Shown one piece after another: positions 43,995-62,385 of a DNA stretch of 64,000 bases. Position 1 is the stretch's first letter. Each line of letters opens with the position of its first letter. The translations under genes and the position numbers were made by a program. This stretch comes from Sulfitobacter sp. M05 (GTDB lineage: Bacteria > Pseudomonadota > Alphaproteobacteria > Rhodobacterales > Rhodobacteraceae): positions 372,001 to 436,000 of the forward strand of contig NZ_JABEDH010000001.1 of NCBI RefSeq assembly GCF_029285175.1. The letters run 5' to 3'. The notes under the pieces were generated by a model. The model was not told where the DNA came from. It saw nothing but the letters and a program-made list of their open reading frames with translations, and searched no databases.

Positions 43995-46900
43995 TTACCA
44001 CCATGCGGGTTCCTCCAACACGCCCACCAGCGGCATCAGGAACTCGTCGGTGCCGTCGCGGGCAAGGTCGTCAACCATGCCGATGGCCCGATCAAATCCT
44101 GCGGCTGTGCCGTCAAACAACGCCATGGCAGTTTGGGCATTTGAAACATCCGACATCCCCCGGTGGACAGAGAAATAGGCCCCGATGTCGGTTTTATCAG
44201 CCAGAAACTGCTGATCTTCCATCTGCTGTGCTTGAAATCTGTCCGACATCTGCCCCTGCGGCGGGGTCTTGGTACCATCCAGAAGTGCAAGGATGAATTG
44301 CCCACGCGCCACCGTGCCGTTTTCAAGTGCGTCGGTCCAGAAGTTGAAGCCCTCGCTGTCGGCGCTGCGTCCCAGCACGTTGTTGTAAACAGCTGTCGCA
44401 AAGTCCTCCACGCTCATCGTATCCGGATAGATTTGTCGGGTTTCCTGTTGATCTGTGAACATCTCTGCGATGTCCTCCAGGCTTGTGCCATTCGCAAAGG
44501 CCGTGCCCCAGAAGTTGAGGCCGACTGCGTCGGGTGCACGGTTGAAATAGGCGATGTAGAGTTCAATGAAGCTTTCCATCTGCGCTGTATTCAAACCTTG
44601 GGCACCGGTAATTTCGGACATATCAAAGCGGGTAACACCATTGTTTTGTGCCGGGTTTTGGAACAGCAGTTCTTCGATATTGATCAACACGTCAGTGCCG
44701 TCACCACTGGCGCGACGATCCTCGATTTCGATGCCGTTCGGCGACAGTCGGAGAGTGTAGTATTCCTGTGACCCCGAGAACTGCGCCCAGTCCCAGCCGC
44801 CGCCGCCGTCCAGCCTGTCATTGCCACCATTGCCCCGCAGGATGTCATTGCCGGAAAATCCGAATATCTGGTCGACTGTTTCGGCACCGTCCAGCGTGTT
44901 GTCGTCGTTGTCCCCGTTCAAGGTTTCACCAACAGACCCGTCTGGGGGCGGCGGGACGTACCCCTGGCTGGATGGTTCACCCTTGGCAAAGATTTCAAGA
45001 AAATCCTGCACCGCATCCATGCGTGGATTGTTGTCATCTAGGTGGCGCAGATGCCCCCAGCTGCCATGTATCGTGGCGCGGTCAACTGCCGTATAGGCGT
45101 TAAACAGGGTGCCACCCGCATCGACCCAGGTCTGAAGTAGTTCCTGATACAGACGGCCCATTCCGGACGTGTAATTCAGGTGGGAAAAGAAATCGGTCAA
45201 AGCGTCATTGCCTTGCCAACTGCCGACCCCGACAACATGGGTGCCACCCTCATACATGACAAGTTCAAGCCCAGCGGCATCGGCCTGTTCCTTGTGATAG
45301 GCAAAGAGCCGGGCCAGATCAGCGAGTGACCCTTGCGGATCGCCGCTGACCGATCCGTCACGCAGTTCGCGGATCGCCAGTCCGGTGGCATAATCATAAC
45401 GGTGGTCGTTGATATAGGCGTCGCGGGCCTGACCAGACAACCCTTGTGCCGCGGCATCGGCGCGCGCGCGCGACAGGCTTTCGTCGAGCCAGTTCAGCAC
45501 CATGCCGCCTTTTTCCCCACGTCCCAGACCGCCGTCGAAATAACCGGTGATGGCATAAGCATCAAAGTGGTTGGAGGGGGCAACTCGTCCTGCCGGATCT
45601 TCAGCAACCCAATCCGGTGCATTCAGAATATCACTTTCCAAACCCAGCCAACCGGTCTGTGTGGTGATCACCTTGATCACATTGGGATTGTCCGCGCCAT
45701 AGATCTCATCGATGATCTGGGCCATCTCTACAGCGTCGCCGGCATAGTTTTGCACCCATGCCGATCCGACACCGGGAAAACGGGCCTGACCTTCTGCATC
45801 AGCGGCCAGCGCCTGTTGAAACTGCCAATTCCAGACCTCGTTCGAGAATTCGAAATAGGGCGTCAGCCCGGCCTTGAGGGTGTCATGCACTTCGCTGACA
45901 AAGGCCCGGATGTATTGTGGAGAGGCAAGATGCGGTAGGGTGAACCACGGATCAGTGTCGGTTTCATTCGCGAGGCGGATCATCACCTCCAGTGGCGCGC
46001 CATCCTCGGCCCAAGAAGCATCCGCGCTTTGAGGCATGTCGCGCGGGGACGCGACCGTTGAATTATTTGTGTTCATCCAATCCATGAAGCGCAAAGCATG
46101 GGCGTCATCGATGACGTCGAGCCATTTCGGATTGAATATTGCGCCTGCGTCAAATGCAGTGGTATGATCTTGATGTACAACGGAAATATCACGAATATAA
46201 TTGCCATTGTTTGCAGGGTCGGTGGATAGGATGTCGATTGTGACAAGGCCGCTGCCGTCAGGCGCATATGAGAACCACGCCTCGTTCTCGCCGTAAGTGA
46301 CATCATAGGCGGCAAGGCCAATTTCCAGCGCTCCGTCGCCTTGCCAAGTGACACGGTACCGGCCCGCCGCTTCAGTCATTTCGGCAGGAAACTCTGTCAG
46401 GATCAGGGTTCCGATTTTGTCGAGACCTGCGGGAATTCCGGTTGGCCAGCCGTTGCTGTCCAAAAGGCCGCGCGCTTCGAGATCTTCGTTTTCCATGCCG
46501 CCCCATTGGCCACTGCGATGGCCAAAGAACGGGCGTGAGGATTTGAAGACATCGAGAAAAGGCGAGGCGGGCGCATAATCGGCAATATGGCTTAACCCAA
46601 AGCCAAGCCCGACAGGAATGTCCGTGTCAGCGCCACCGCCCGACACGGGGGGCTGGGGCACAGGGGCCGGTGACGGCGCTGGCGCGGGTTGCGGTTCAGG
46701 GGGGGGCACTGGCTGCGGTTCAGGTTCCGGTTGTGGCTCTGGTGCGGGCATCGGTTGCGGCACCGGTGCCGGCGTGGGGGTGCCGCCAGAATTACCGCCG
46801 GTACCGTCCCGGTCATAAGCGTCCAAGGTTTGGTCAATCACGCTATTCATGGCTTGGGCCAGTGCGGCGTCGGGGCCACCATAGGGGCTGCCCCAGACAG

Positions 46901-47558
46901 AAACCGTATCCAGCGGCAGCGTTGCCGCATCGGCCCCGGCCACCACCTCTGCATGCAAGGCGGCGACAAACCAGATGCCGGTTTCGTTGAGATGAATATT
47001 GTCGGAAAACAGATCTCGAATGCTGCTTAAACCGGGCACCTGACCGGCCTCAATCGCGTCATGCAGGTTCCCAAAGGCCTGACCGGCGGGGATAATCAAC
47101 GCCTCGGCAGCGCCATTTGGGGCATTGTCATTGATATGATTGGCAATACTCTCCCATTTGGGCAGGTCGCTGGCGATTTGCGCCCGCCACGCGGCGGTAC
47201 TTGCGCCGATTTCATGCCATGTCTCATAGACATAGAACTGCGTTCCGGGATTTGCGCTCTGAGCGAGGTCGTAATAGCGTTTGGCGTAGCCTTCGCTGTC
47301 GTTCCACAGGATTTGATCATCAAGCGGAATGGCCTCAGTCACGATCACCGCATCATAGCTACCGCCGGGCAAAACATCCCGTGCATTCACGCCCTCGGCG
47401 GTATGCCCGTTGTTCCAGTTCCAGATCAGCGGCGCGCCATTGATAACCTGATAGTCGGCCCGCATGGCAAACCCTTGATCCGCCATAAAATTGTTGAACA
47501 TGTCGGGCATGACCGGCCCGACCAAACTGTGGCCAATGAAAAGCGCCTTACCCGGCAT
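43995..47558 (-). CDS. 1187-residue multidomain exoprotein: SGNH-like, glycosidase-like barrel, RTX-like, DUF4214
   Basis: Domain order: residues 1-~240 look like an SGNH hydrolase (Ser11 in 'FIGHSLVG'; 'SDNIHLNETG' with Asp186 and His189). Residues ~255-305 are a linker of repeated Pro-Xaa-Pro/Glu units. Residues ~310-470 are a beta-rich region. Residues ~475-860 resemble a clan-A glycoside hydrolase barrel, with Asn-Glu in 'FEFSNEVWN' (Glu574, candidate acid/base) and 'VMYEGGTH' (Glu770, candidate nucleophile). Residues ~878-925 hold calcium-binding RTX-like repeats ('GNGGNDRLDGGGG'), and the C-terminus (~985-1150) has DUF4214 motifs ('YIAYFNRAPDAVGLNFW', 'VLGRSADSEGFNFW'). There is no N-terminal signal, consistent with type I secretion. 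It probably acts on extracellular polysaccharide; no secretion genes are adjacent. Confidence 0.75.
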   Translation of the reverse strand: MPGKALFIGHSLVGPVMPDMFNNFMADQGFAMRADYQVINGAPLIWNWNNGHTAEGVNARDVLPGGSYDAVIVTEAIPLDDQILWNDSEGYAKRYYDLAQSANPGTQFYVYETWHEIGASTAAWRAQIASDLPKWESIANHINDNAPNGAAEALIIPAGQAFGNLHDAIEAGQVPGLSSIRDLFSDNIHLNETGIWFVAALHAEVVAGADAATLPLDTVSVWGSPYGGPDAALAQAMNSVIDQTLDAYDRDGTGGNSGGTPTPAPVPQPMPAPEPQPEPEPQPVPPPEPQPAPAPSPAPVPQPPVSGGGADTDIPVGLGFGLSHIADYAPASPFLDVFKSSRPFFGHRSGQWGGMENEDLEARGLLDSNGWPTGIPAGLDKIGTLILTEFPAEMTEAAGRYRVTWQGDGALEIGLAAYDVTYGENEAWFSYAPDGSGLVTIDILSTDPANNGNYIRDISVVHQDHTTAFDAGAIFNPKWLDVIDDAHALRFMDWMNTNNSTVASPRDMPQSADASWAEDGAPLEVMIRLANETDTDPWFTLPHLASPQYIRAFVSEVHDTLKAGLTPYFEFSNEVWNWQFQQALAADAEGQARFPGVGSAWVQNYAGDAVEMAQIIDEIYGADNPNVIKVITTQTGWLGLESDILNAPDWVAEDPAGRVAPSNHFDAYAITGYFDGGLGRGEKGGMVLNWLDESLSRARADAAAQGLSGQARDAYINDHRYDYATGLAIRELRDGSVSGDPQGSLADLARLFAYHKEQADAAGLELVMYEGGTHVVGVGSWQGNDALTDFFSHLNYTSGMGRLYQELLQTWVDAGGTLFNAYTAVDRATIHGSWGHLRHLDDNNPRMDAVQDFLEIFAKGEPSSQGYVPPPPDGSVGETLNGDNDDNTLDGAETVDQIFGFSGNDILRGNGGNDRLDGGGGWDWAQFSGSQEYYTLRLSPNGIEIEDRRASGDGTDVLINIEELLFQNPAQNNGVTRFDMSEITGAQGLNTAQMESFIELYIAYFNRAPDAVGLNFWGTAFANGTSLEDIAEMFTDQQETRQIYPDTMSVEDFATAVYNNVLGRSADSEGFNFWTDALENGTVARGQFILALLDGTKTPPQGQMSDRFQAQQMEDQQFLADKTDIGAYFSVHRGMSDVSNAQTAMALFDGTAAGFDRAIGMVDDLARDGTDEFLMPLVGVLEEPAWW

Positions 47559-47836: not shown

Positions 47837-48358
47837 CTAATTTTTGGTCAAGGCGTCGATGATCTGCTCCAGCGCATCGCCGGCTTTGGCCCGCATTTCA
47901 TCGTCGGTCGCATCCTGTATTGGATGTGGCACCAGAATATAACGTGCATCGTCCATGCCAAGCGCGGCTTTCTGCGCTTCGGCGGCTTCACCAAACTCGC
48001 TGGAGGCGAGGAAGACTGTTGGGATTCCCTGGATTTCAAACCAGACTGTATCGTGCATACTGCACGTCGTACAGGAACCTCAGTCAGCCAATGCTTCCAG
48101 CACCAAATCACAGGTTTCACGTATTTCGTGACGCAAAATGTCAGGGCAGGGTTTTGTAAACGTAGGCTTTTTGAAACGGCGCAGGCTGACGTCAGGTGCC
48201 CTTTCTGCCAGCAGTTTCTCAAGCTCGTCCAACATCACGTCACCGCGCGGCTTGCTGATGTCCAACAGGCCGATAACACCGGAAAGCGTGCCGGATCGTG
48301 CGGTGATCTGGCGTGCAACCGGTGTGCGTTCGTCTGTCGGATCAAGAATTGTTACCAT
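47837..48358 (-). CDS. UGSC-motif selenoprotein (in-frame TGA read as selenocysteine)
   Basis: The first 92 codons (MVTILDPTDERTPVARQI...) end at a TGA (48082-48080) that is followed in the same frame by GSCTTCSMHDTVWFEIQGIP and a further ~65 codons to a TAA. Read through as selenocysteine, this gives 173 residues with U93-G-S-C96-T-T-C99, the defining motif of the UGSC family of (seleno)proteins. A SECIS-like hairpin starts 5 nt after the TGA. selA, selB and tRNA-Sec lie 2-6 kb upstream on the same strand. The upstream gene ends 24 bp before and encodes a thioredoxin-like fusion. The U/C pairs suggest redox or thiol chemistry; the reaction is unknown. Standard gene callers would report two broken frames. 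Confidence 0.88.
48046..48074 (-). promoter_or_regulatory. SECIS-like stem-loop of the selenoprotein
   Basis: On the minus strand CTGTA (48074-48070) pairs with TACAG (48050-48046), and an inner stem GTGC/GCAC closes an AGTAT loop containing GU. The loop begins 18 nt after the TGA, within the 16-37 nt range known for bacterial SelB-binding SECIS elements. The internal bulge CGAC/GA gives an irregular stem, also usual. Confidence 0.75.
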
Positions 48359-48382: not shown

Positions 48383-49945
48383 CTAGCCGAGATCGATCTT
48401 TTTGGAAACGGAGAGTGATCCGGTTTCCCCACTTACCCAGCCATGAAACGCAGAAGAGAATTTTCCGGCTTCCGATCCTGCCACTACGATATGGATAAAA
48501 TCTGTGCTGGCGAATTTTGAAACGATTGTATCGGCAGGGCCATCAGCAGGCAGCGCAAGGGTGGCGTCATTGCGTATTCCAGCCGCAGGGGTGGCCGTCA
48601 CCGCCTGAATACGCTCCCGCAACCGATCTTTGGAATACAGGCCTTCGCGCATCAGGGTATCGATATGTTCAGGGCAAACTACCAGCAGGGCATCGACGGG
48701 CAGGTTCTTCATTTTAGGTGAAAATACCCCTTCAAGGCCAAGCCCCAAAGAGTCTGCAATCTGATCCGGTCCGCGCGAGGTTTGATCAACGATATGCACC
48801 GGCCCGCCGGTCATGGCAAAGACGGTGACCACAGAATCCTCTGGTTCAAACCCGCGCTCCACATGAAGGGCGGGCCAGCCTGCGCGTTCCTCGTATTCGG
48901 CGAAACACATGGTGAATTTCATCGGATTGCCAAGGGTCGAGCGTTCAACACCCCCCGATGACGCCCCCCCGATATTGCGCACCACCAGCCGGACCGCGCG
49001 GCCAATGGTGGCGTTGGCCCGGTTGCCGGCCCCCAAGGCACCCAGCTTCATATTCATGCCAATTTTTTCGCGGATCGGGCCATTTACCACCATGACAGGG
49101 GCCGCGCCCATGGTCGTCGCCGTTACGCCATGGATGTTGAATTCATCGGTACAAATCGCCTCGACTGCGGCGATAACCACGGGCAGGTATTCAGGTTTGC
49201 ACCCAGCCATGACCGCGTTGATGGCGATTTTTTCAACTGTGGCTTCGCCCATATTGGGTGCCACCGTTGCGACCACATCTTGGGCGTTGCGGCGGGTGCC
49301 TGACAGCATACGCATCACCCGTTCAGGGGTCGGCGGCACCAGCGGCAAACCATCGGAAAACCCCTGATCGAACATAAATTCCGCCACATCGTCGCCGCTT
49401 GCCACGTCAATGCGCCTTGCGCGGATCGGGCTGTTCTCGGCCTCTGCTTTCAGCCGGTCAAATACCGAAGGATCAAGGTGTTTTGAGCCGCAGCCAGGGC
49501 GCCAAGCGGGCAGGCCGGACCAGTCGATTTGCACCGCTGGCAGGGCGGTATGCGTACTCAGGTCAGCGGCAAGGGTTTCCCAATCTGAGCGGATAAACCC
49601 TTCGAATTGGGCCCGTTTTTCGCCGTTTTCGTCGATCCAGAAGACCGAAGGCACGCTTTCGATTTCCCAATCATAGGCCGCTTTACAGGCGGTGTCATCC
49701 AGCACCGGCATCGTCAGGCTGTGGCGTTGGGCAAAAGTGGCGTTCTGCAGGCCGGATTGCGCAACAAGCGCCACGTCGATTGCGTGGCCATAGGCCTTGT
49801 GAAGCGCTTCAAGCACGGGGGCGGCGGTGTTGCAGGTTTCGCAATCCTCTTTGACAAAACAAATCAGACGGGCGCGCCCGGCAGCAAAGCTGTGCCGCTC
49901 TCCCGCCAAATCATCCAGCGTTATGGTCAAGCCGGCTGTGATCAT
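48383..49945 (-). CDS. Thioredoxin-like fusion protein associated with the UGSC selenoprotein
   Basis: 520 residues. Residues 1-~135 are a thioredoxin fold with active site 'FVKEDCETCNTAAP' (Cys35-Glu-Thr-Cys38) and cis-Pro in 'ESVPSVFWIDENG'. A short linker with 'RPGCGSKH' (Cys152) leads to a ~350-residue domain starting 'FSDGLPLVPPTPERVMRML', with conserved-looking 'GCKPEYLPVV', 'TTMGAAPVMVVNGPI', 'GNRANATIGRAVRLVVRNIGG'. That domain is familiar to me as the partner of UGSC proteins but has no known activity. No signal peptide, so cytoplasmic. It is co-transcribed with the selenoprotein and likely exchanges electrons with its U/C centre. Confidence 0.75.
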   Translation of the reverse strand: MITAGLTITLDDLAGERHSFAAGRARLICFVKEDCETCNTAAPVLEALHKAYGHAIDVALVAQSGLQNATFAQRHSLTMPVLDDTACKAAYDWEIESVPSVFWIDENGEKRAQFEGFIRSDWETLAADLSTHTALPAVQIDWSGLPAWRPGCGSKHLDPSVFDRLKAEAENSPIRARRIDVASGDDVAEFMFDQGFSDGLPLVPPTPERVMRMLSGTRRNAQDVVATVAPNMGEATVEKIAINAVMAGCKPEYLPVVIAAVEAICTDEFNIHGVTATTMGAAPVMVVNGPIREKIGMNMKLGALGAGNRANATIGRAVRLVVRNIGGASSGGVERSTLGNPMKFTMCFAEYEERAGWPALHVERGFEPEDSVVTVFAMTGGPVHIVDQTSRGPDQIADSLGLGLEGVFSPKMKNLPVDALLVVCPEHIDTLMREGLYSKDRLRERIQAVTATPAAGIRNDATLALPADGPADTIVSKFASTDFIHIVVAGSEAGKFSSAFHGWVSGETGSLSVSKKIDLG

Positions 49946-49976: not shown

Positions 49977-50281
49977 AGGGTCAGGACCCATTAATCCTGT
50001 ATCGTCAGCGGCAATTTCACGAAATTTCAATGGTTTGGGCCGCGCGGTCAATAGTGTTTCTATTGGCAAGCGGTCCAAGACGCTGAAATGAAGTGAAATT
50101 ACTGCCCTGCGGGTTTGCCGGATTTTCCCGCTTCCCATTGCCCGGCAGGGTCATCCAAAGGATGATCCCGAGAGGGGGCGTCACATCTATTTGAAATAGA
50201 ATCGCTATTCCTGCACAGATGTTCCTTGTTAGCGAAAAAATCGGGCAAACTGACGGCACAGGATTAATGGGTCCTGGCCCT
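49977..50281. repeat. 305-bp element with inverted ends (copy 1, MITE-like)
   Basis: The ends are near-perfect inverted repeats of ~24 bp (AGGGTCAGGACCCATTAATC on the left; the complement of AGGGCCAGGACCCATTAATC on the right). Nearly the same sequence is present in reverse orientation at 62040-62313; copy 1 has ~30 extra bases around 50190-50220. No intact protein is encoded; a short frame shared by both copies ('GSGKIRQTRRA.ISLHFSV') may be a relic. It separates the UGSC gene pair from tRNA-Sec. Confidence 0.85.
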
Positions 50282-50314: not shown

Positions 50315-50408
50315 TGGCGGAGGTGGATGGGAATCGAACCCACCACACGCCGCAAGGCGTGTCCATGGTGTTGAAGACCAGGGAAGCCACCAGACTCCGG
50401 TCACCTCC
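50315..50408 (-). tRNA. selC: tRNA-Sec (TCA anticodon)
   Basis: 94 nt on the minus strand with an 8-position acceptor (GGAGGTGA against CCACCTCC, last position mismatched), a long D-arm, anticodon loop CTTCAAC with TCA, a 7-bp variable arm (ACACGCC-TTGC-GGCGTGT), T-arm GTGGGTTCGATTCCCAT, discriminator G and encoded CCA. It starts 13 bp after the selB stop codon, so it probably belongs to the selAB transcript. Confidence 0.95.
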
Positions 50409-50421
50409 AGATGGGGCAAGC

Positions 50422-52326
50422 CTATCGTTGCGCGGACGGCGGGGGAACCGGATTTGCGCGCATCCGGCGCAAATTTCCGGTACGTTCTGTCACGCCGGTT
50501 TCGTCGAAGTATTCCAGCACCGGCACAATGATCCTGCGGCTGGTATGCAGGGCGCTGCGCGCGGCGCTGGTGGTGAAGAATTGCGGGGCTGGAAAGGATT
50601 TTCGCAGGCTGGCTGCCGCCATGTGCAGGGCGTCCTTATGGAACATAAGGCGTTGTTTTAAAGCAACATTCGTAAGGACCAGCACCGCGCCGGTATCCGC
50701 CAGCAGGACCAGTAGATCCGTGTCGCTTTCTTCGGTGATCTGTGGCGGTGAAGCCGCCAGTCCGGCCTCCCGGAACGCGGTTTCAATCTCCGCCATTCTG
50801 CTGCGCTGTCTGTTGTCCAAATTGGCCATCGGGTCATGGCCAAAGGCCGCCAGCTTGCCGTCTTTCTGATGCAAAAGCCCCTTGGCGATCATCGTGCTTT
50901 CCACATGCTGCAAGAGAACCGGTGCGACAGAGGGGGGGACAATTGACGGTTTTGCTGCAAAGTGGCGCAAGGGGAATTGCGCATGATAGGTGTGCAGGGC
51001 GGCCAAAATGTACTTTGTGCAGATGTCGATTTGTTCCCGAGGGCACATCTCTTGCGCCGTGATCTGGACAAATCCGGGCAACATTTCCGGGGGCAACTTG
51101 TCAGGGTCACGTCGCGACAGGCGGGCAACATCCGTAATGGTACAGACACCCCGATTGGCCGCGCAAAGGGCGGCGGCAATCGCAGGGATGTCTTGGCGAT
51201 GGGCCGCCTCCAGAACGGTCATTCGCATCCCTTCACGTGATTTTGTCGGTGTTGCTTGCGGATCAAGAAAAACCGCCCCTGAGACCGTTTCAGCAGGGGA
51301 CAGGCGGCGCAGCACCGCGTGTTGCCCGGCATATCCGACCACGGGATTTTTGAAACGCAGCTGGGCGAAACCGGAATGCCCCGCGCCAAGCTGGCCACCG
51401 CCAAACAGCCGCAAACTGGCCACATGGCTGGTGGTCCCGAAGAATACCCGCAGGTCTTGCATGTGTTTAAGTGGCGCGGTGATATCGGCCAGCAGGTTCA
51501 AACGCACGTCAATGCAAGTGGTGGCCCGCTGCGCGCCTTGCGCACAAAGCACCGATCCTCGTGTGACATCGGCAACCGCCAGCCCCCGCAGGCCCGCCGC
51601 CGTACGTTCGCCAGCATGGATGCGCCCGCGTGTCTTGCCCCGGCTTTGAAGGCTGCGCAGGGTGATGGGGCGCTCTGCGGGGTGCAGCCAAAGCTTGTCG
51701 TGAAGGTTTAGCGCGCCCCCCAGCAAGGTGCCCGTGACCACAGTGCCGAGGCCGGACAGGGAAAACACCCGGTCGATTGGCAAGTAGCTCTGCAAAGGTG
51801 CGTTGGTTGTGGGGCGGCACTTTTGCAACAGGGCTTCGATCTCTGCGTGCAGCGTAGATATTCCCGCATCTGAGCGCACAGAACATGCCACCAGCGGGGC
51901 CTGTGCAAAAACCGTCTGTGACAGATCACGCCGTATCCCCTCCACCCGGGTGGCCAGCTGTGATGCTGACAGCATATCGGATTTTGTCACCGCGATGATG
52001 CCCTGCGCTACACCAAGCAGCGCTGCGATTTTCAAATGCTCCAAGGTCTGTGCCGCGACGCCGTCGGTTGCCGAAATCACCAAGAGGGCGGCCTGTGCCC
52101 CGCTTGCGCCGGTGATCATCGCCTGAATGAAATCTGCATGTCCCGGGGTGTCGACAAAATCCACCACGCCTGCGGGATAGCGGTGATGGGCAAAGCCGGC
52201 AGTGATCGACAGGCCGCGGATTTTTTCTTCGGGCAGGCGATCGGTGTCGGTACCGGTCAGCGCTTGAACAAGGGCGGTTTTGCCATGATCCACATGGCCG
52301 ATCACCACCATGCAGCAGGTGTTCAT
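50422..52326 (-). CDS. selB: Selenocysteine-specific translation elongation factor SelB
   Basis: 634 residues, the usual SelB length. GTPase domain with G1 'GHVDHGKTALV', 'DFVDTPGHADFIQAMI' (G3) and 'AVTKSDML' (G4). The effector segment reads 'RLPEEKIRGLSITAGFAH', as in SelB rather than EF-Tu. Beta-barrel domains follow, and the C-terminal ~250 residues hold winged helices that bind the SECIS hairpin. It delivers Sec-tRNA-Sec to UGA. It overlaps the selA end by 4 bp. Confidence 0.96.
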   Translation of the reverse strand: MNTCCMVVIGHVDHGKTALVQALTGTDTDRLPEEKIRGLSITAGFAHHRYPAGVVDFVDTPGHADFIQAMITGASGAQAALLVISATDGVAAQTLEHLKIAALLGVAQGIIAVTKSDMLSASQLATRVEGIRRDLSQTVFAQAPLVACSVRSDAGISTLHAEIEALLQKCRPTTNAPLQSYLPIDRVFSLSGLGTVVTGTLLGGALNLHDKLWLHPAERPITLRSLQSRGKTRGRIHAGERTAAGLRGLAVADVTRGSVLCAQGAQRATTCIDVRLNLLADITAPLKHMQDLRVFFGTTSHVASLRLFGGGQLGAGHSGFAQLRFKNPVVGYAGQHAVLRRLSPAETVSGAVFLDPQATPTKSREGMRMTVLEAAHRQDIPAIAAALCAANRGVCTITDVARLSRRDPDKLPPEMLPGFVQITAQEMCPREQIDICTKYILAALHTYHAQFPLRHFAAKPSIVPPSVAPVLLQHVESTMIAKGLLHQKDGKLAAFGHDPMANLDNRQRSRMAEIETAFREAGLAASPPQITEESDTDLLVLLADTGAVLVLTNVALKQRLMFHKDALHMAAASLRKSFPAPQFFTTSAARSALHTSRRIIVPVLEYFDETGVTERTGNLRRMRANPVPPPSAQR

Positions 52327-53714
52327 CTGGCGGCGATCCGTTGTACCGTTTGCGCAATCGTCGCCAGTTCCCCGTCCCAGACCGTGCGCATGTCCAGCAT
52401 CACCTGATCCTGTTCGATCCGGCCAATCACTGGTGTTTCGTGCTGTCGCAAGGCCGCGGCCAGCTTTTCCGCAGATAATCCGTGCAGGCGCAGTGAGACG
52501 GCAAAACTGGCCAGCGCCTGATCCGGCAGGCTGCCCCCGCCGACATAAGCCGCAGTTTCATGCACCGCGACCCGTGCCCCATCAATGCTGCCAAGGGATT
52601 GCTCTAACGCCCTTGCGCGGGTCTCGATCTGGTCCAGCGGGGCCGACAACATTTGCAAGACAGGGACCGAGGTTAGCGGGTCATGCGGCGGACGGTACAG
52701 GCGCAAGGTTGCCTCAAGCGCGGCCAGCGACAGCTTGTCCACACGCAAAGCCCGCATCAAAGGGTGCCCCTTGAGTTGCGCAACTATATCAGAACGTCCG
52801 GCAATGATCCCGGCTTGTGGGCCCCCCAGCAGCTTGTCGCCAGAGAACATCACCAGATTGACGCCCGCCTTAAGGATATCCGCCACCACGGGTTCGTCCG
52901 GCAGACCGTAGGGGGACAGATCAATCAACACACCGCTACCAAGGTCTTCGATCAGGATCACGTCACGCTCTTTCGCCAGTCTGGCAAGGTCACGCCGCTC
53001 GGGGGCAGCGGTAAAACCCACGATCTTGAAATTGCTGGTATGGCTTTTCAGCAGGACAGCGGTGTCGCCGTCGATCGCATTGGCGTAATCATCTACCCTT
53101 GTTTTATTAGTGGTGCCCACCTCGCGCAGGGTTGCCCCGCTTTGTGCAATCACATCGGGCAGGCGGAAGGATCCGCCGATCTCGATCAACTCGCCGCGCG
53201 ATGCAACCACACTGCGCCCGCCCGCTGTGGCCATCAGGCCAAGCAACACCGCAGCGGCACAGTTGTTAACGACCACCGCGGCCTCTGCGCCTGTCAATTC
53301 GCAAATCAGCGTTTCCACATGGGCATGGCGTGAACCGCGTTTGCCTGTCTCAAGGTCCAGCTCAAGGTTTGACGGGGTCGCGCCAACCGCCTGCATCGCT
53401 GCTACCGCTTGCGGGGCCATGCGCGCGCGGCCCAGATTGGTGTGGATCAGGATGCCGGTGGCATTAATGACCGGGTGCAGCGAAGAGGATCGTTCGGCCT
53501 CTATCTGCGCTGACAGGTGTGCTGCAAAACCGGCGCTGGCAAAATCGGGAAAGGTGACCGTGTGGCCCGCCAGCAGACCCGCACGCAAATCCGCAATGAC
53601 CCCGCGCAAGGCTGTGACGGTTTCCTCGTGGCTATAGCGCGCCATCACCTCGGAAATGGCAGGCTGTTCCAGAAGGGTCTGAATTTGCGGCAGCTTGGAA
53701 AGGTCTTTTTGCAT
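52323..53714 (-). CDS. selA: L-seryl-tRNA(Sec) selenium transferase SelA
   Basis: 463 residues, standard length. A PLP enzyme of the aspartate-aminotransferase fold: 'LPQIQTLLEQPAISEVMARY' start, 'NATGILIHTNLGRARM', 'HAHVETLICELTGAEAAVVVNNCAAAVLL', and the PLP Lys in 'MFSGDKLLGGPQAGIIAG'. It converts Ser-tRNA-Sec to Sec-tRNA-Sec with selenophosphate. It heads selA-selB-tRNA-Sec. selD (selenophosphate synthetase) is not in the window and must be elsewhere for the system to work. Confidence 0.97.
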   Translation of the reverse strand: MQKDLSKLPQIQTLLEQPAISEVMARYSHEETVTALRGVIADLRAGLLAGHTVTFPDFASAGFAAHLSAQIEAERSSSLHPVINATGILIHTNLGRARMAPQAVAAMQAVGATPSNLELDLETGKRGSRHAHVETLICELTGAEAAVVVNNCAAAVLLGLMATAGGRSVVASRGELIEIGGSFRLPDVIAQSGATLREVGTTNKTRVDDYANAIDGDTAVLLKSHTSNFKIVGFTAAPERRDLARLAKERDVILIEDLGSGVLIDLSPYGLPDEPVVADILKAGVNLVMFSGDKLLGGPQAGIIAGRSDIVAQLKGHPLMRALRVDKLSLAALEATLRLYRPPHDPLTSVPVLQMLSAPLDQIETRARALEQSLGSIDGARVAVHETAAYVGGGSLPDQALASFAVSLRLHGLSAEKLAAALRQHETPVIGRIEQDQVMLDMRTVWDGELATIAQTVQRIAAR

Positions 53715-53775: not shown

Positions 53776-54771
53776 TCACATGGCAAGTTCTTTCCAGCGG
53801 TGGCAGGCGACATTGTGTTCGGGGCCGGCAGTTTCCAGCAGCGGCTCCTCAACCCGACAACGATCAATCGCCATAGGACAGCGGGTCTGGAATTTGCATC
53901 CCGGGGGCGGGTTGGTCGGCGAGGGGATTTCACCCTCAAGCTTCTGTGCCTTGCCTCGATCATCTGGATCCAGTGACGGGATCGCCGACAGCAGGGCTTG
54001 GGTATAGGGATGGCGTGGGGCGGAAAACAGCGCGCGTGTGGGGGCGGTCTCTACCAAGCGGCCCAGATACATCACCGCCACATGGTCACAGACATGGGCA
54101 ACGACGCTCAGATCGTGACTGATGAACAGAAAGGTCAGGCCCATGTCCTGCTGGATCGCCTTGAGCAGGTTCAGCACGTCGGCCTGAATCGACACGTCAA
54201 GGGCGGCAACACTTTCGTCCGCCACGATGAATTTTGGTGCCGAAACAAGGGCGCGGGCAATCGAAATCCGCTGGCGCTGGCCACCGGAAAACGCATGTGG
54301 AAAACGGCGCAGGTGTTCCACGTTCAGGCGGCATTTGGCGGCAATTTCACGGACACGCTCATCGGTTTCCGCACGTGTTTTGGTCAGCCCCATCACCTCA
54401 AGCGGTTCGGCAATGATATCGCGCACAGTCATGCGCGGGCTGAGCGCAGCGTAGGGGTCCTGAAAGATCAGTTGCGCCCGCGACCGGTAATCCTTCAGCT
54501 CTTTCTTGCCGAGGTTTTTCAGGGAATAGGCGACCTCGCCATCGTCAAACAACACATCGCCTTTGGAAATCGGTGCGGCGCGCAGCATGGCACGGCCCAA
54601 GGTGGTCTTGCCCGAACCGGATTCCCCGACAAGGCCAAAGAAACTGCCCGGGGCCACTTCGATGCTGACGTTTTCAACCGCCCCGACATAGGGTTTGGGC
54701 CCGATAAGCCCGCCGCGCAGCGGGTAATGCACAGATAGGTTCTGCGCCGTGATCAGGGGGTTGTCACTCAT
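53776..54771 (-). CDS. Oligopeptide-type ABC transporter ATP-binding protein (OppF type)
   Basis: 331 residues. Walker A 'GESGSGKTT' at ~49-57, signature 'FSGGQRQRISIARAL', Walker B 'FIVADESVAALDVS' and the C-terminal 'GCKFQTRCPMAIDRC' cysteine motif. Note DES rather than the usual DEP in Walker B. It overlaps the OppD-type gene by 4 bp and is last in a five-gene operon. Confidence 0.94.
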   Translation of the reverse strand: MSDNPLITAQNLSVHYPLRGGLIGPKPYVGAVENVSIEVAPGSFFGLVGESGSGKTTLGRAMLRAAPISKGDVLFDDGEVAYSLKNLGKKELKDYRSRAQLIFQDPYAALSPRMTVRDIIAEPLEVMGLTKTRAETDERVREIAAKCRLNVEHLRRFPHAFSGGQRQRISIARALVSAPKFIVADESVAALDVSIQADVLNLLKAIQQDMGLTFLFISHDLSVVAHVCDHVAVMYLGRLVETAPTRALFSAPRHPYTQALLSAIPSLDPDDRGKAQKLEGEIPSPTNPPPGCKFQTRCPMAIDRCRVEEPLLETAGPEHNVACHRWKELAM

Positions 54772-55769
54772 GCGCCGCCCCCTTGTGGATCATGCAAATG
54801 GCAGGCGGCAGCGTGGTCAGTGTCAACTTGGCTGAACCTTGGCGCCTCGGCTGAACAGCGTGGGCCCAGCACCTCCTGACAGCGGGTGTTGTAGACACAG
54901 CCAGAAGGGCGTTCGAGCGGCGAAGGGATATCTCCGGGGATTGGCGTCAGCGGCGCATCAATGTCATCCAGTGTCGGCAGGGCGGCCAGCAAGCCACGGG
55001 TATAGGGATGGGCGGGGCGACGGATCACATCGCGCACCGTGCCTTGTTCGACCAGTTTGCCCAGATACATCACCGCCACTTTATCCGCGGTCTGCGCGAT
55101 CACCCCAAGGTCGTGGGTGATAAAGATAATGCCCATGCCAAATTCGCTGACAAGGTCTTTCATCAGGTCGATGACCTGCGCCTGAATGGTGACATCCAGC
55201 GCTGTTGTCGGTTCATCGGCAATCAGCAACCTCGGTTTGGTGGACAGAGCCATGGCGATCATCGCGCGTTGCCGCATACCGCCCGAAAGTTCAAAGGCAT
55301 ATTGCCCGAAACGTGTGGACGGATCTGAAATGCCGACACGATCCAACATTTCGACGGATACTTCTTTGGCTTGCGCCTTGGAGAAATTGGTGTGGATCAT
55401 CAGCTGTTCGACCATTTGTTCCCCGATCGAAATCGCGGGCGCAAAGCTTGCCATTGGCTCTTGAAAAATCAGCGAAATTGCCCCGCCGCGCACTATCTTC
55501 ATCTCGGTGTCGTTTTGCAGCGACATCACATCGATTGGCCCGTCATCCAGATGCAGGGTGATTTTGGTATCCGGCCCATAGACCGCATTGCGCGGGTTCA
55601 GCTTCATCAGCGATTTCGCGGTCACGGATTTGCCCGACCCGGACTCCCCGACCAACCCCATCACCTCACCGGCTTCAAGGCTGAAAGATACATTGTCCAC
55701 CGCGGTGATGCGCCCTTCGTCGGTATCAAATTGCAGGGTCAGGTTCTCAACATCAATCAAGCGGCTCAT
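54768..55769 (-). CDS. Oligopeptide-type ABC transporter ATP-binding protein (OppD type)
   Basis: 333 residues. Walker A 'GESGSGKSV' at ~41-49, signature 'LSGGMRQRAMIAMAL', Walker B '[14 protein letters not shown]' and C-terminal 'GCVYNTRCQEV'. Segment 'GPIDVMSLQNDTEMKIVRGG' is an insertion relative to short Opp ATPases. It overlaps both neighbouring genes by 4 bp. Confidence 0.94.
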   Translation of the reverse strand: MSRLIDVENLTLQFDTDEGRITAVDNVSFSLEAGEVMGLVGESGSGKSVTAKSLMKLNPRNAVYGPDTKITLHLDDGPIDVMSLQNDTEMKIVRGGAISLIFQEPMASFAPAISIGEQMVEQLMIHTNFSKAQAKEVSVEMLDRVGISDPSTRFGQYAFELSGGMRQRAMIAMALSTKPRLLIADEPTTALDVTIQAQVIDLMKDLVSEFGMGIIFITHDLGVIAQTADKVAVMYLGKLVEQGTVRDVIRRPAHPYTRGLLAALPTLDDIDAPLTPIPGDIPSPLERPSGCVYNTRCQEVLGPRCSAEAPRFSQVDTDHAAACHLHDPQGGGA

Positions 55770-56908
55770 TTCTTGGTGTCTCCGTAGGGGTCAGCAGCGT
55801 CGCGCAGCCCGTCGCCGACAAAAACAAAGGCCATCACAAGCACGATGAAGAAAATCACAGGAATGAAATACCATTGATAATTCAGCAGGACATCCGCGCT
55901 GGTCACGTTTTGCAGCATCACGCCGAGGGAGTTCACCGGGTCTTTGAGGCCCAGGCCGATAAAGCTAAGCGCGGTTTCGGACAGCACCATATAGGGAAAG
56001 GAAATCACCAGATCGACGATGATATAGCTGGTGAAACTGGGTAACAGGTGTTTGCGGATCACATGGCCTGACGACGCCCCGCAAAGCTGTGCGGCCAGCA
56101 CGTATTCCTGATTGCGTTCGGTCAGCAGATGCGTGCGTACCCGCCGGGCAAGGGTGGGCCAGCCGATGAAGCCTAGGATAACCGAGATGAAGAAGAACCT
56201 TTCCTCGGCGCTCCAGGTGTCTGGGATGAAGGCGGCCAGCGCCATAAATAACGGGATCGCGGGAATGGTGCGCACCGCGTCGGTCACCATTTGTATAAAG
56301 GAGTCGATCCAGCCGCCGTAAAATCCCGATATCCCGCCAATGATCAGTGCCAGCACAAAGGCAATCAACACGCCAATCGTCCCTACTGCCAGCGACGTGT
56401 TGATGGCATGAAAGGTGCGCGAAAAAATGTCCTTGCCGGTGGAATCCGTGCCAAACAGATGGATATAGCCCTCGTCCAACCCGAACAGATGCGTGTCAAA
56501 GGTCATGAAAAACAACTCGTATTCAGACCCTTCCACGAAGAACTGCACATATCGGCGTTCATCTGTATTGACCTTGGTCACCCAGCGGAAATTCGTCGCG
56601 ATAGAGCGTTCCCGCTCTACGGCATAAAGGAAGGGGCGCAGTGAACACCCGTTGTCATCGCAAAATTTCGGGACGGTCGGGGCACCATTCAGATAGTCCT
56701 TGTCGCGCCCTGCAATTGTCGGGTCATAGGGCGTCAGGAAAGGGGCAAAGATGCCCGATAGGATCAGGATCACTAAGACCCATGCCCCAACCATTGCGGC
56801 TTTTTGTTTCTTGAAACGCGCCCAGATCAGCTGTCCCTGACCCGCGGTGAAATAGGCGTCCTTGGCAGATTGGTCGACGGCAGCGTCGTAGATATTTGTC
56901 TCTGTCAT
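55766..56908 (-). CDS. ABC transporter permease (OppC type) with large periplasmic insertion
   Basis: 380 residues from ATG 56908, four bases after the upstream permease; an earlier in-frame ATG would overlap that gene. The N-terminal helix ('MVGAWVLVILILSGIFAPF') is followed by an insertion of ~90 residues ('CDDNGCSLRPFLYAVERERS... FVEGSEYELFFMTFDTHLFG') before 'FGTDSTGKDIFSR', larger than in standard OppC. Five helices and an EAA-like 'AAQLCGASSGHVIRKHLLPSF' complete it. The two Cys in CDDNGC may pair in the periplasm. Similar loops occur in YejE-like permeases. Confidence 0.9.
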   Translation of the reverse strand: MTETNIYDAAVDQSAKDAYFTAGQGQLIWARFKKQKAAMVGAWVLVILILSGIFAPFLTPYDPTIAGRDKDYLNGAPTVPKFCDDNGCSLRPFLYAVERERSIATNFRWVTKVNTDERRYVQFFVEGSEYELFFMTFDTHLFGLDEGYIHLFGTDSTGKDIFSRTFHAINTSLAVGTIGVLIAFVLALIIGGISGFYGGWIDSFIQMVTDAVRTIPAIPLFMALAAFIPDTWSAEERFFFISVILGFIGWPTLARRVRTHLLTERNQEYVLAAQLCGASSGHVIRKHLLPSFTSYIIVDLVISFPYMVLSETALSFIGLGLKDPVNSLGVMLQNVTSADVLLNYQWYFIPVIFFIVLVMAFVFVGDGLRDAADPYGDTKK

Positions 56909-56912
56909 CTCT

Positions 56913-57917
56913 TTATCCCAATATGCTGCGGCGGATGCGGGGGTCGACAAGGGCCAGCGTGATGTCGGTGATAAAATTGATGGCCACGATGCTGGCGGTC
57001 AGGAAAAAGATGATCGCGCCGGCCAACTGTTGGTCATTGGACCGCGCAAGGGCCTCGATCAACAGGGAACCCGCTTCGGTCAAGGTCAGGATCAGGGCAA
57101 CGATGGGCAGTTCATTGAAAATGCGGTTCAGATCAAATCCAAGCGAATTGATGATCGGGCTCAGCGCATGGCGGGCGGGATAGCGCAGCAACAGCCGCCG
57201 CCCCGAGACCCCGCGCGCGGCGGCGGCGGTGACATAAAGCTTGCTGATTTCATCCGACATCAGGGCGCGCACCGTCTGTATTGCAAAGGCGGTTGCTGAC
57301 CAGCCAAGGATAAACACCGGCAGCCAGACATGGCTGAGAAAATCCTTGATCCTGGGCCAGTCCCACGGAGCATCCCGAAACTCCGGCGAAAACAGACCGG
57401 TCAGGCTGTTGCCAAAGAACACCGTTGAAAACAGCATGATCATCAGCGCCAGCAGAAAGTTCGGCAGCGCGAGGCCAAGATAGCTGACCAGCCGCAGGCC
57501 ATTGTTCAGAAACGGATTGCGCGATGTGGCGGCGATGATGCCGACCGGGATCGCGATGAGATAGGCAAGAAGCAGGGAGCCAAGGCAGATGCCAATGCTC
57601 AACCATACTTTCTGGCCCAACAATTGGTTGATGTTCAGGCGCAGGATACAACTGTCGCCAAACTCGCCCTGAAAGGCCCCGAAGATCCATTTCACCCAGC
57701 GTTCAAAAAACGGGCGGTCAAGGCCAAGGCGGATGCGTTCGGCTTCGATATCGGCAACGGAAATCTGCGCACCCTGCGAGTTCTTAAAGGCAAGGTAGCG
57801 TTCGGCGCAATCGCCGGGCACCAGCTCCATCAGTGAAAATACGATAAAGGAAACAAGGCAAAGCGTGAAAAAGGCAAGGACCGCGCGAATGCCGGCAAAT
57901 CTTAGAAACTGAACCAT
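56913..57917 (-). CDS. ABC transporter permease (OppB type)
   Basis: 334 residues from ATG 57917 (MVQFLRFAGIRAVLAFF); the 30 codons upstream read as leader. Six membrane helices and an OppB N-terminal part with a long periplasmic stretch ('ELVPGDCAERYLAFKNSQGAQISVADIEAERIRLGLDRPFFERW'). The EAA motif is in 'TAAAARGVSGRRLLLRYPARHAL'. It pairs with the OppC-type permease four bases downstream. Confidence 0.92.
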   Translation of the reverse strand: MVQFLRFAGIRAVLAFFTLCLVSFIVFSLMELVPGDCAERYLAFKNSQGAQISVADIEAERIRLGLDRPFFERWVKWIFGAFQGEFGDSCILRLNINQLLGQKVWLSIGICLGSLLLAYLIAIPVGIIAATSRNPFLNNGLRLVSYLGLALPNFLLALMIMLFSTVFFGNSLTGLFSPEFRDAPWDWPRIKDFLSHVWLPVFILGWSATAFAIQTVRALMSDEISKLYVTAAAARGVSGRRLLLRYPARHALSPIINSLGFDLNRIFNELPIVALILTLTEAGSLLIEALARSNDQQLAGAIIFFLTASIVAINFITDITLALVDPRIRRSILG

Positions 57918-62039: not shown

Positions 62040-62313
62040 AGGGTCAGGACCCCTTAAGCCTGTGCCGTCAGTTTGCCCGATTTTTTCGCTAACAAGGAAT
62101 ATCTGTGCAGAAATCCCCTCTCGGGACACTGCTGCGCAATGCCCTGTCGGGCAATGGGAAGCGGCAAAATCCGGCAGACCCGCAGGGCGGCAATTTCACT
62201 TCATTTCAGCGTCTCGGATCGCTTACAAATAGACACTATTGACGGCGCGGCCCAAACCATTGAAATTTCGTGGAATTGCCGCTGACGATAAAGGCTTAAT
62301 GGGGCCTGACCCT
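62040..62313. repeat. 274-bp element with inverted ends (copy 2, inverted relative to copy 1)
   Basis: Ends AGGGTCAGGACCCCTTAAGC and the complement of AGGGTCAGGCCCCATTAAGC, flanked on both sides by CTAG-completing bases. Read in reverse it matches copy 1 (49977-50281) along its whole length except for a ~30-bp deletion and scattered changes, for example the shared block GAAATTTCAATGGTTTGGGC. It fills most of the gap 61915-62385, which has no gene. Confidence 0.85.
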
Positions 62314-62385
62314 AGGGTGGGGTGAATTTACGGGGTCCCGACCCTGACGGGCCAGTTTTGCGGCCCTTGATCCAGAAAGGTGCCG

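Follow-up and report, generated by a model that had tools for sequence, protein, structure and literature searches.

A UGSC-family selenoprotein gene and its likely partner beside selenocysteine machinery in Sulfitobacter sp. M05

A UGSC-family gene split by an in-frame TGA

We analyzed a 64,000-nucleotide stretch of the Sulfitobacter sp. M05 genome (the window), in which a gene of 173 codons occupies positions 47837 to 48358 of the minus strand. From an ATG at 48358, with an AAAGGAG ribosome-binding site recognized by eye 5' of it, 92 codons lead to a TGA at 48082-48080, after which the same frame resumes as GSCTTCSMHDTVWFE... and runs for 80 codons to a TAG at 47837. The joined protein is 173 residues long and carries U at position 93 within D-U-G-S-C-T-T-C. 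A first-pass annotation made from the sequence alone had described both the continuation of the frame to a normal stop and the U-G-S-C-T-T-C motif, and both are seen here.

When the joined protein was searched against UGSC family profiles, as that annotation had proposed, it scored 173.2 bits with NCBIfam NF041046 (UGSC_fam, cut-off 125) and 163.3 bits with Pfam PF24696 (cut-off 25), exceeding both curated cut-offs over the whole protein. Taken separately, the N and C halves reach 58.6 and 76.8 bits with the NCBIfam profile, both under its cut-off, and the UGSC_fam name could thus be lost if the annotation were split at the TGA; the same halves score 55.5 and 68.8 bits with PF24696, both over 25. 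On these matches and the U-G-S-C motif, 47837-48358 is one real UGSC-family selenoprotein gene, itself without any difference from the known family, and a single 173-residue selenoprotein should be called there. Residues D92, U93, G94, S95, C96, C99, H102, D103 and H145 are invariant in an alignment of 77 sequences (the window and 76 named loci, from the best 80 of 583 described below), and Cys99 is missing from several subfamilies (TPAVLR, SSWSFHD).

The novelty of the gene had been rated too high, since the family has Pfam and NCBIfam models of its own and has been known since the 2008 GOS survey, which, in the portions of the paper at hand, counts UGSC proteins among the commonest selenoproteins and tabulates 255 Sec and 21 Cys forms (PMC2398784). 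Sec is in the great majority here as well: the class sample gave 97 matches in 38 of 385 genomes, 92 of them with one internal TGA and five without a stop, one of the five being a fragment. Among genomes of the same bacterial family, UGSC occurs in 3 of 149, the window genome counted in.

Probable recoding of the TGA as selenocysteine

Selenocysteine machinery lies upstream on the minus strand, where the first-pass annotation had placed it. Profile, ARAGORN and Rfam matches identify a tRNA-Sec with anticodon TCA (50315..50408; RF01852, 70 bits, gathering threshold 47), selB for the Sec-specific elongation factor (50422..52326; TIGR00475, 278.2 bits, cut-off 242) and selA for seryl-tRNA(Sec) selenium transferase (52323..53714; TIGR00474, 589.6 bits, cut-off 268). 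The fourth component, selD, whose absence had been held to speak against a selenoprotein, is present on another contig of the same genome (288 bits, cut-off 125), and all four are therefore found in this genome.

We then scanned a profile of the adjacent gene P (see below) over 84,980 species genomes and kept the best 80 of 583 confirmed loci. In 78 of these 80 a UGSC frame follows P on the same strand, one of the 78 being cut by a contig end; of the other two, L073 has a contig that ends inside P and L104 has P with no UGSC on an 11-kb contig. The Sec codon is TGA in 77 of the 78 frames, the contig of L107 stopping before the codon, and the window brings this to 78 of 78 sequences, drawn from bins whose titles span six phyla. 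Homologues continue past residue 92, and position 93 is U or, in five distant TGA-less forms (L135-L139), Cys, as had been anticipated for relatives. In the class sample, selA scores above its cut-off in 34 of 35 genomes with the TGA form, the exception (G011) being 77% complete. Four genomes have only TGA-less UGSC: one carries selA (G246), two have none (G326, G363) and one has a weak match below the cut-off (G398).

A SECIS-like hairpin behind the TGA

Counting the U of the UGA as position 1, the upper stem-loop of a candidate bacterial SECIS (48052..48066, minus strand) pairs positions 17-22 with 26-31 around a loop of G23, U24 and A25. Nineteen nucleotides separate the TGA from the loop G, within a base of the 18 given in the first-pass annotation. 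Folding of the single window sequence 3' of the TGA gave z values of -0.8 to -1.1 against shuffles, with no separation, and we therefore turned to comparative analysis.

The codon for Ser100 is AGT in 74 of 74 sequences with Ser, and the other four sequences have Cys, encoded by TGT. At other Ser positions, AGT accounts for 38 of 639 codons in the same UGSC genes and 21 of 402 in 14 partner genes, in counts whose sequences, drawn from the best 80 of 583 loci and the window, are related to one another. Among 37 distinct UGSC copies of a broad set, GT stands at positions 23-24 in 31 and one base earlier in six, all of TPAVLR type. We aligned the window with the 31, leaving out the six with the shifted loop. 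In this alignment of 32, the pair 21-27 is CG in 27 sequences and GC in five, whose proteins have Trp in place of Cys-99. In covariation score and in share of paired cells the alignment lies above all 500 shuffles; for cells with both sides changed it lies above all but one, and for pairs with both sides changed above all but 12. One version slid by +3 has an equal number of both-side-changed pairs and a greater variety of pair types, and 43% of its cells pair as against 91%. A close set of 56 of the 78 sequences, hand-chosen to drop near copies, gave weak covariation, its two both-side-changed pairs being reached by 162 of 500 shuffles. We relied on the alignment of 32 because a further one holds eight named sequences picked partly for carrying changes.

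Codon choice and covariation support the predicted hairpin as a SECIS, the reading that the first-pass annotation had given it. It shares with the SECIS of E. coli fdhF a short stem and a G23-U24 in the apical loop at equal distance from the UGA, but lacks the bulged U17, having a paired C there, and has a stem of 6-8 bp with a 3-nt loop. In the fdhF element, U17, G23 and U24 have roles in SelB binding.

As judged from these sequence comparisons, SelB and tRNA-Sec almost certainly decode the UGA at residue 93 as Sec by means of the hairpin directly 3' of it. The opposing account, in which the TGA marks a pseudogene, a sequencing error or a true stop, so that the protein ends at residue 92 and the remainder is decay, could appeal to the reading of TGA as a stop in table 11 and to the ordinary fold of the single sequence; it is scarcely credible given the TGA at one and the same codon across the 78 sequences and their six titled phyla, the match of each half to the UGSC family, the AGT codon and pairing constraints 3' of the TGA, and the presence of selA, selB, selD and tRNA-Sec in the genome.

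Gene P, a near-constant partner

Gene P (48383-49945) and a 305-bp repeat element stand between the tRNA-Sec and UGSC. P, which the first-pass annotation does not mention, lies on the minus strand, ends 24 bases before the UGSC ATG and encodes 520 aa comprising a ResA/TlpA-like thioredoxin domain with CETC and a core, as seen from Pfam and NCBIfam scans and a fold search. The fold search finds a thioredoxin fold with its CxxC at the N-terminus (residues 1-136, 49538..49945, minus strand; CETC at 35-38). This domain resembles ResA, TlpA and DsbE thioredoxin-like proteins but is fused to a 335-residue core (residues 186-520, 48386..49390, minus strand) with the motifs DGLPLVPPT, NAVMAGC and NRANATIGRA. 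No signal peptide was recognized by eye, and P is probably cytoplasmic.

The core has 25 invariant columns in an alignment of 19 diverse P sequences, including C249 and C347, which like C35 and C38 of the thioredoxin domain are each at least 90% kept in a wider alignment of 66 rows. N243, R309, R316 and E350 also count among the conserved residues of P. For the core, scans of the 19 sequences against Pfam and NCBIfam with E values up to 1 returned no credible match; in the fold search, the thioredoxin domain alone appears among the matches listed, filling the list, with no core fold among them. PDB sequence searches with profiles returned nothing for the UGSC protein and, for P, one designed helical repeat at E 0.83. 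We consider that the core merits its own family. In a P tree of the 66 rows, the window groups with Sulfitobacter and Rhodobacteraceae bins and phyla are partly mixed, with the caveat that bins may contain stray contigs.

P and UGSC are present in one and the same set of 38 genomes among the 385 of the class sample. P lies no more than 1.5 kb from UGSC in 31 of 32 loci (the window locus counted in) and is near it in all 40 regions chosen for broad comparison, eight of which contain true fusions of the two. Same-frame UGSC and P in L115 and L147 were rejected as fusions, a TGA standing between them. At L020, UGSC has no P nearby and the genome (G065) carries P on another contig; the two are likewise on different contigs in the fragmented assembly of G313, and their spacing widens to about 1.2 kb in L072 and 3.9 kb in L103. 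One genome (G187) holds eight UGSC genes, all with TGA and in differing gene neighborhoods.

A subfamily of UGSC-P fusions (L133, L134, L143-L145, L149) has TPAV after U-G-S/T-C and mostly a second P gene following it; the loop GU of its hairpin is one base closer to the UGA. In five of the 40 regions (L133, L141, L144, L147, L151), each with UGSC, P and a further P gene, the adjoining gene on the same strand encodes a thioredoxin-reductase-like flavoprotein that contains CxxCDG. These neighbors match TIGR01292 with E values of 6e-53 to 4e-73, all under its cut-off of 343 bits. In many subfamilies both such a neighbor and a fused thioredoxin domain are lacking.

The GOS paper names a fusion of UGSC to a domain called 'Unknown_1' (PMC2398784), which, from the portions of that text at hand, is probably the P core. 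Within the portions of the literature at hand, we found no description of P or of the Sec cassette it shares, and the same portions yielded no statement of the function of the UGSC family.

A compact cassette in close relatives

Gene order indicates that, in the closest relatives, selA-selB-tRNA-Sec-P-UGSC is a compact cassette, and that in this alphaproteobacterial clade the enzyme travels with the Sec machinery. The 17 closest named loci (L035-L051) belong to Rhodobacterales, Hyphomonadaceae, Caulobacteraceae, one unplaced alphaproteobacterium and one bin named Acidobacteria. Every one of the 17 has a tRNA-Sec just 5' of P, sharing the strand of P in 16, and none stands beside P in the next 21 loci (L052-L072), within a scan that covered L035-L072. 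This count is firmer than that of the protein neighbors, some 'selA' and other ORFs among them being antisense artefacts of a crude gene caller. In six of these loci, members of one gene cluster stand 107-251 bp from the UGSC-P pair; the one in L050 encodes an Ndh-SelD fusion (262 bits with TIGR00476, cut-off 125), and the other five fall in the same cluster. Another genome of the same bacterial family, G495, has selA and UGSC together, with a tRNA-Sec match on another contig. Formate dehydrogenase profile matches in the window genome contain no stop and GRDB has no match there, so that, for the two families checked, UGSC may be the main or only Sec client.

The repeat element (49977..50281) is MITE-like, with 32-nt terminal inverted repeats that are 91% identical, and is not part of the enzyme. 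About ten more full or partial copies occur in the genome at 79-90% identity, one of them at about 62040-62314 of the window. The distance from tRNA-Sec to the start of the P match is 73-90 nt in six relatives checked and 369 nt in the window. A partial copy (L001, G000:C7:252360-252515) is also present on another contig, some 1.3 kb away from the match to selD, possibly by chance.

Composition over 40-60 kb gave no clear island border. Comparison with four same-family genomes without UGSC returned scattered short DNA matches, mostly to ABC-transporter genes, with a few to a gene of 1187 residues and, in G252, partial matches to the repeat element; matches so scattered revealed no insertion site. 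The stretch 53776-56950 of the minus strand, ending just 5' of selA on the same strand, carries peptide-type ABC transporter genes, judged by eye to encode two ATPases and one permease. The 1187-residue protein (43995-47558, minus strand), 3' of UGSC, begins, as judged by eye, like an SGNH hydrolase and also has a linker rich in proline and sequence resembling hemolysin-type calcium repeats, GNGGNDRLDGGGG.

Neighbor clustering, with cluster names assigned by eye, revealed no recurrent pathway, the largest clusters reaching 5 of 40 broad regions. An acyl-CoA dehydrogenase gene occurs in 16 of the 80 named loci (the best 80 of 583), at scattered distance and strand. Because the wider neighbors vary from locus to locus, they indicate no pathway.

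A proposed two-subunit selenoenzyme

The structure model of the UGSC protein (pLDDT 92.8) has an alpha/beta fold with five strands and helices in strict alternation, and residue 93 stands at the start of helix 94-109. Its best PDB matches are flavodoxin-like and Rossmann-like; no thioredoxin is among the matches listed, which leaves room for one.

Co-occurrence, adjacency and natural fusions make it likely that UGSC and P form a two-subunit oxidoreductase, and we think that P is the key to its function. Sec93, at its helix start, would be the reactive selenol, attacking or reducing a substrate bound by the P core. A selenenylsulfide would then form between Sec93 and Cys96 or Cys99, and the CETC of the ResA-like domain in P would reduce it back; in some other subfamilies the neighboring thioredoxin-reductase-like flavoprotein would serve as reductant. 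The presence of two different dithiol donors beside the same UGSC-P pair suggests a dithiol relay as the route by which the selenol is regenerated, and we lean slightly toward such a dithiol-fed selenol reductase mechanism. The explanation as a whole, with a Sec-decoded UGSC protein, a two-subunit enzyme with P, a dithiol relay and a cassette in this alphaproteobacterial clade, we judge moderately probable.

Three other accounts of the protein deserve weighing. Kinship with GrdB/PrdB (PF07355), in which UGSC and P would be distant relatives using Sec as nucleophile for reductive cleavage of an activated C-N or C-X bond, strikes us as unlikely. By eye there is a common order of features, U-x-x-C followed by E..GIPT or, more generally, E..G(I/V/L)xT, and then an RP/HP motif, and dehydrogenase, CoA-ligase, hydrolase and transporter genes lie nearby; hhalign also sets U on U when Cys is written for Sec. 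With X at that position, however, it aligns only the part behind the Sec, its match to 18 GRDB-like sequences (probability 3%, P 0.015) is not significant, the joined UGSC protein has no PF07355 match at E 0.01, and Pfam offers no credible match to the P core. GrdB/PrdB itself works with other subunits. Somewhat less probable still is a free-standing thioredoxin-type thiol oxidoreductase or peroxidase with P merely a frequent neighbor. The UxxC motif and the two genomes with UGSC and P on separate contigs (G065, G313) fit it, but the five-strand alpha/beta model with flavodoxin-like structures among its nearest matches, the occurrence of P in 38 of 38 UGSC genomes and the existence of fusions speak against it. 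A thioredoxin-type oxidoreductase role had been suggested for UGSC in the 2008 survey (PMC2398784, in the portions at hand).

That Sec93, Cys96, Cys99 and His102 instead make up a soft-metal or metalloid detoxification site rather than a redox relay seems to us very improbable. The U-x-x-C-x-x-C-x-x-H spacing is conserved in the alignment of 77 sequences, and PMC13188914, in the portion at hand, discusses possible metal-ligand roles of selenoproteins just ahead of its mention of UGSC; Cys99 is nevertheless gone in the TPAVLR and SSWSFHD subfamilies, the dithiol donors beside P favor redox turnover, and no metal-resistance genes were recognized by eye in the recurrent neighbor clusters, which are partly annotated.

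Returning to the two-subunit oxidoreductase, a near-constant, unannotated partner with its own thiol donor shows what to co-express with UGSC and which electron source to try, and the pair makes UGSC function directly testable; dependence on a partner would also account for any lack of activity in the small selenoprotein by itself. More tentatively, UGSC and P could make up a two-subunit selenoenzyme of a class not yet described, P supplying a new catalytic core domain. Copies of this enzyme (up to eight UGSC genes in a genome) might serve different catabolic pathways of environmental bacteria, and in one alphaproteobacterial clade it might spread as a self-sufficient package with selA, selB and tRNA-Sec, joined in six relatives by a gene of Ndh-SelD type.

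In a set of GRDB/PrdB-like alphaproteobacterial selenoprotein loci (L155, L157-L161, L163-L165, L171-L178, L180 and L181), PF07355 matches stop at a TGA that is followed by P-x-C, and read-through leads into a conserved C-terminal region. These genes are probably also split in annotation.
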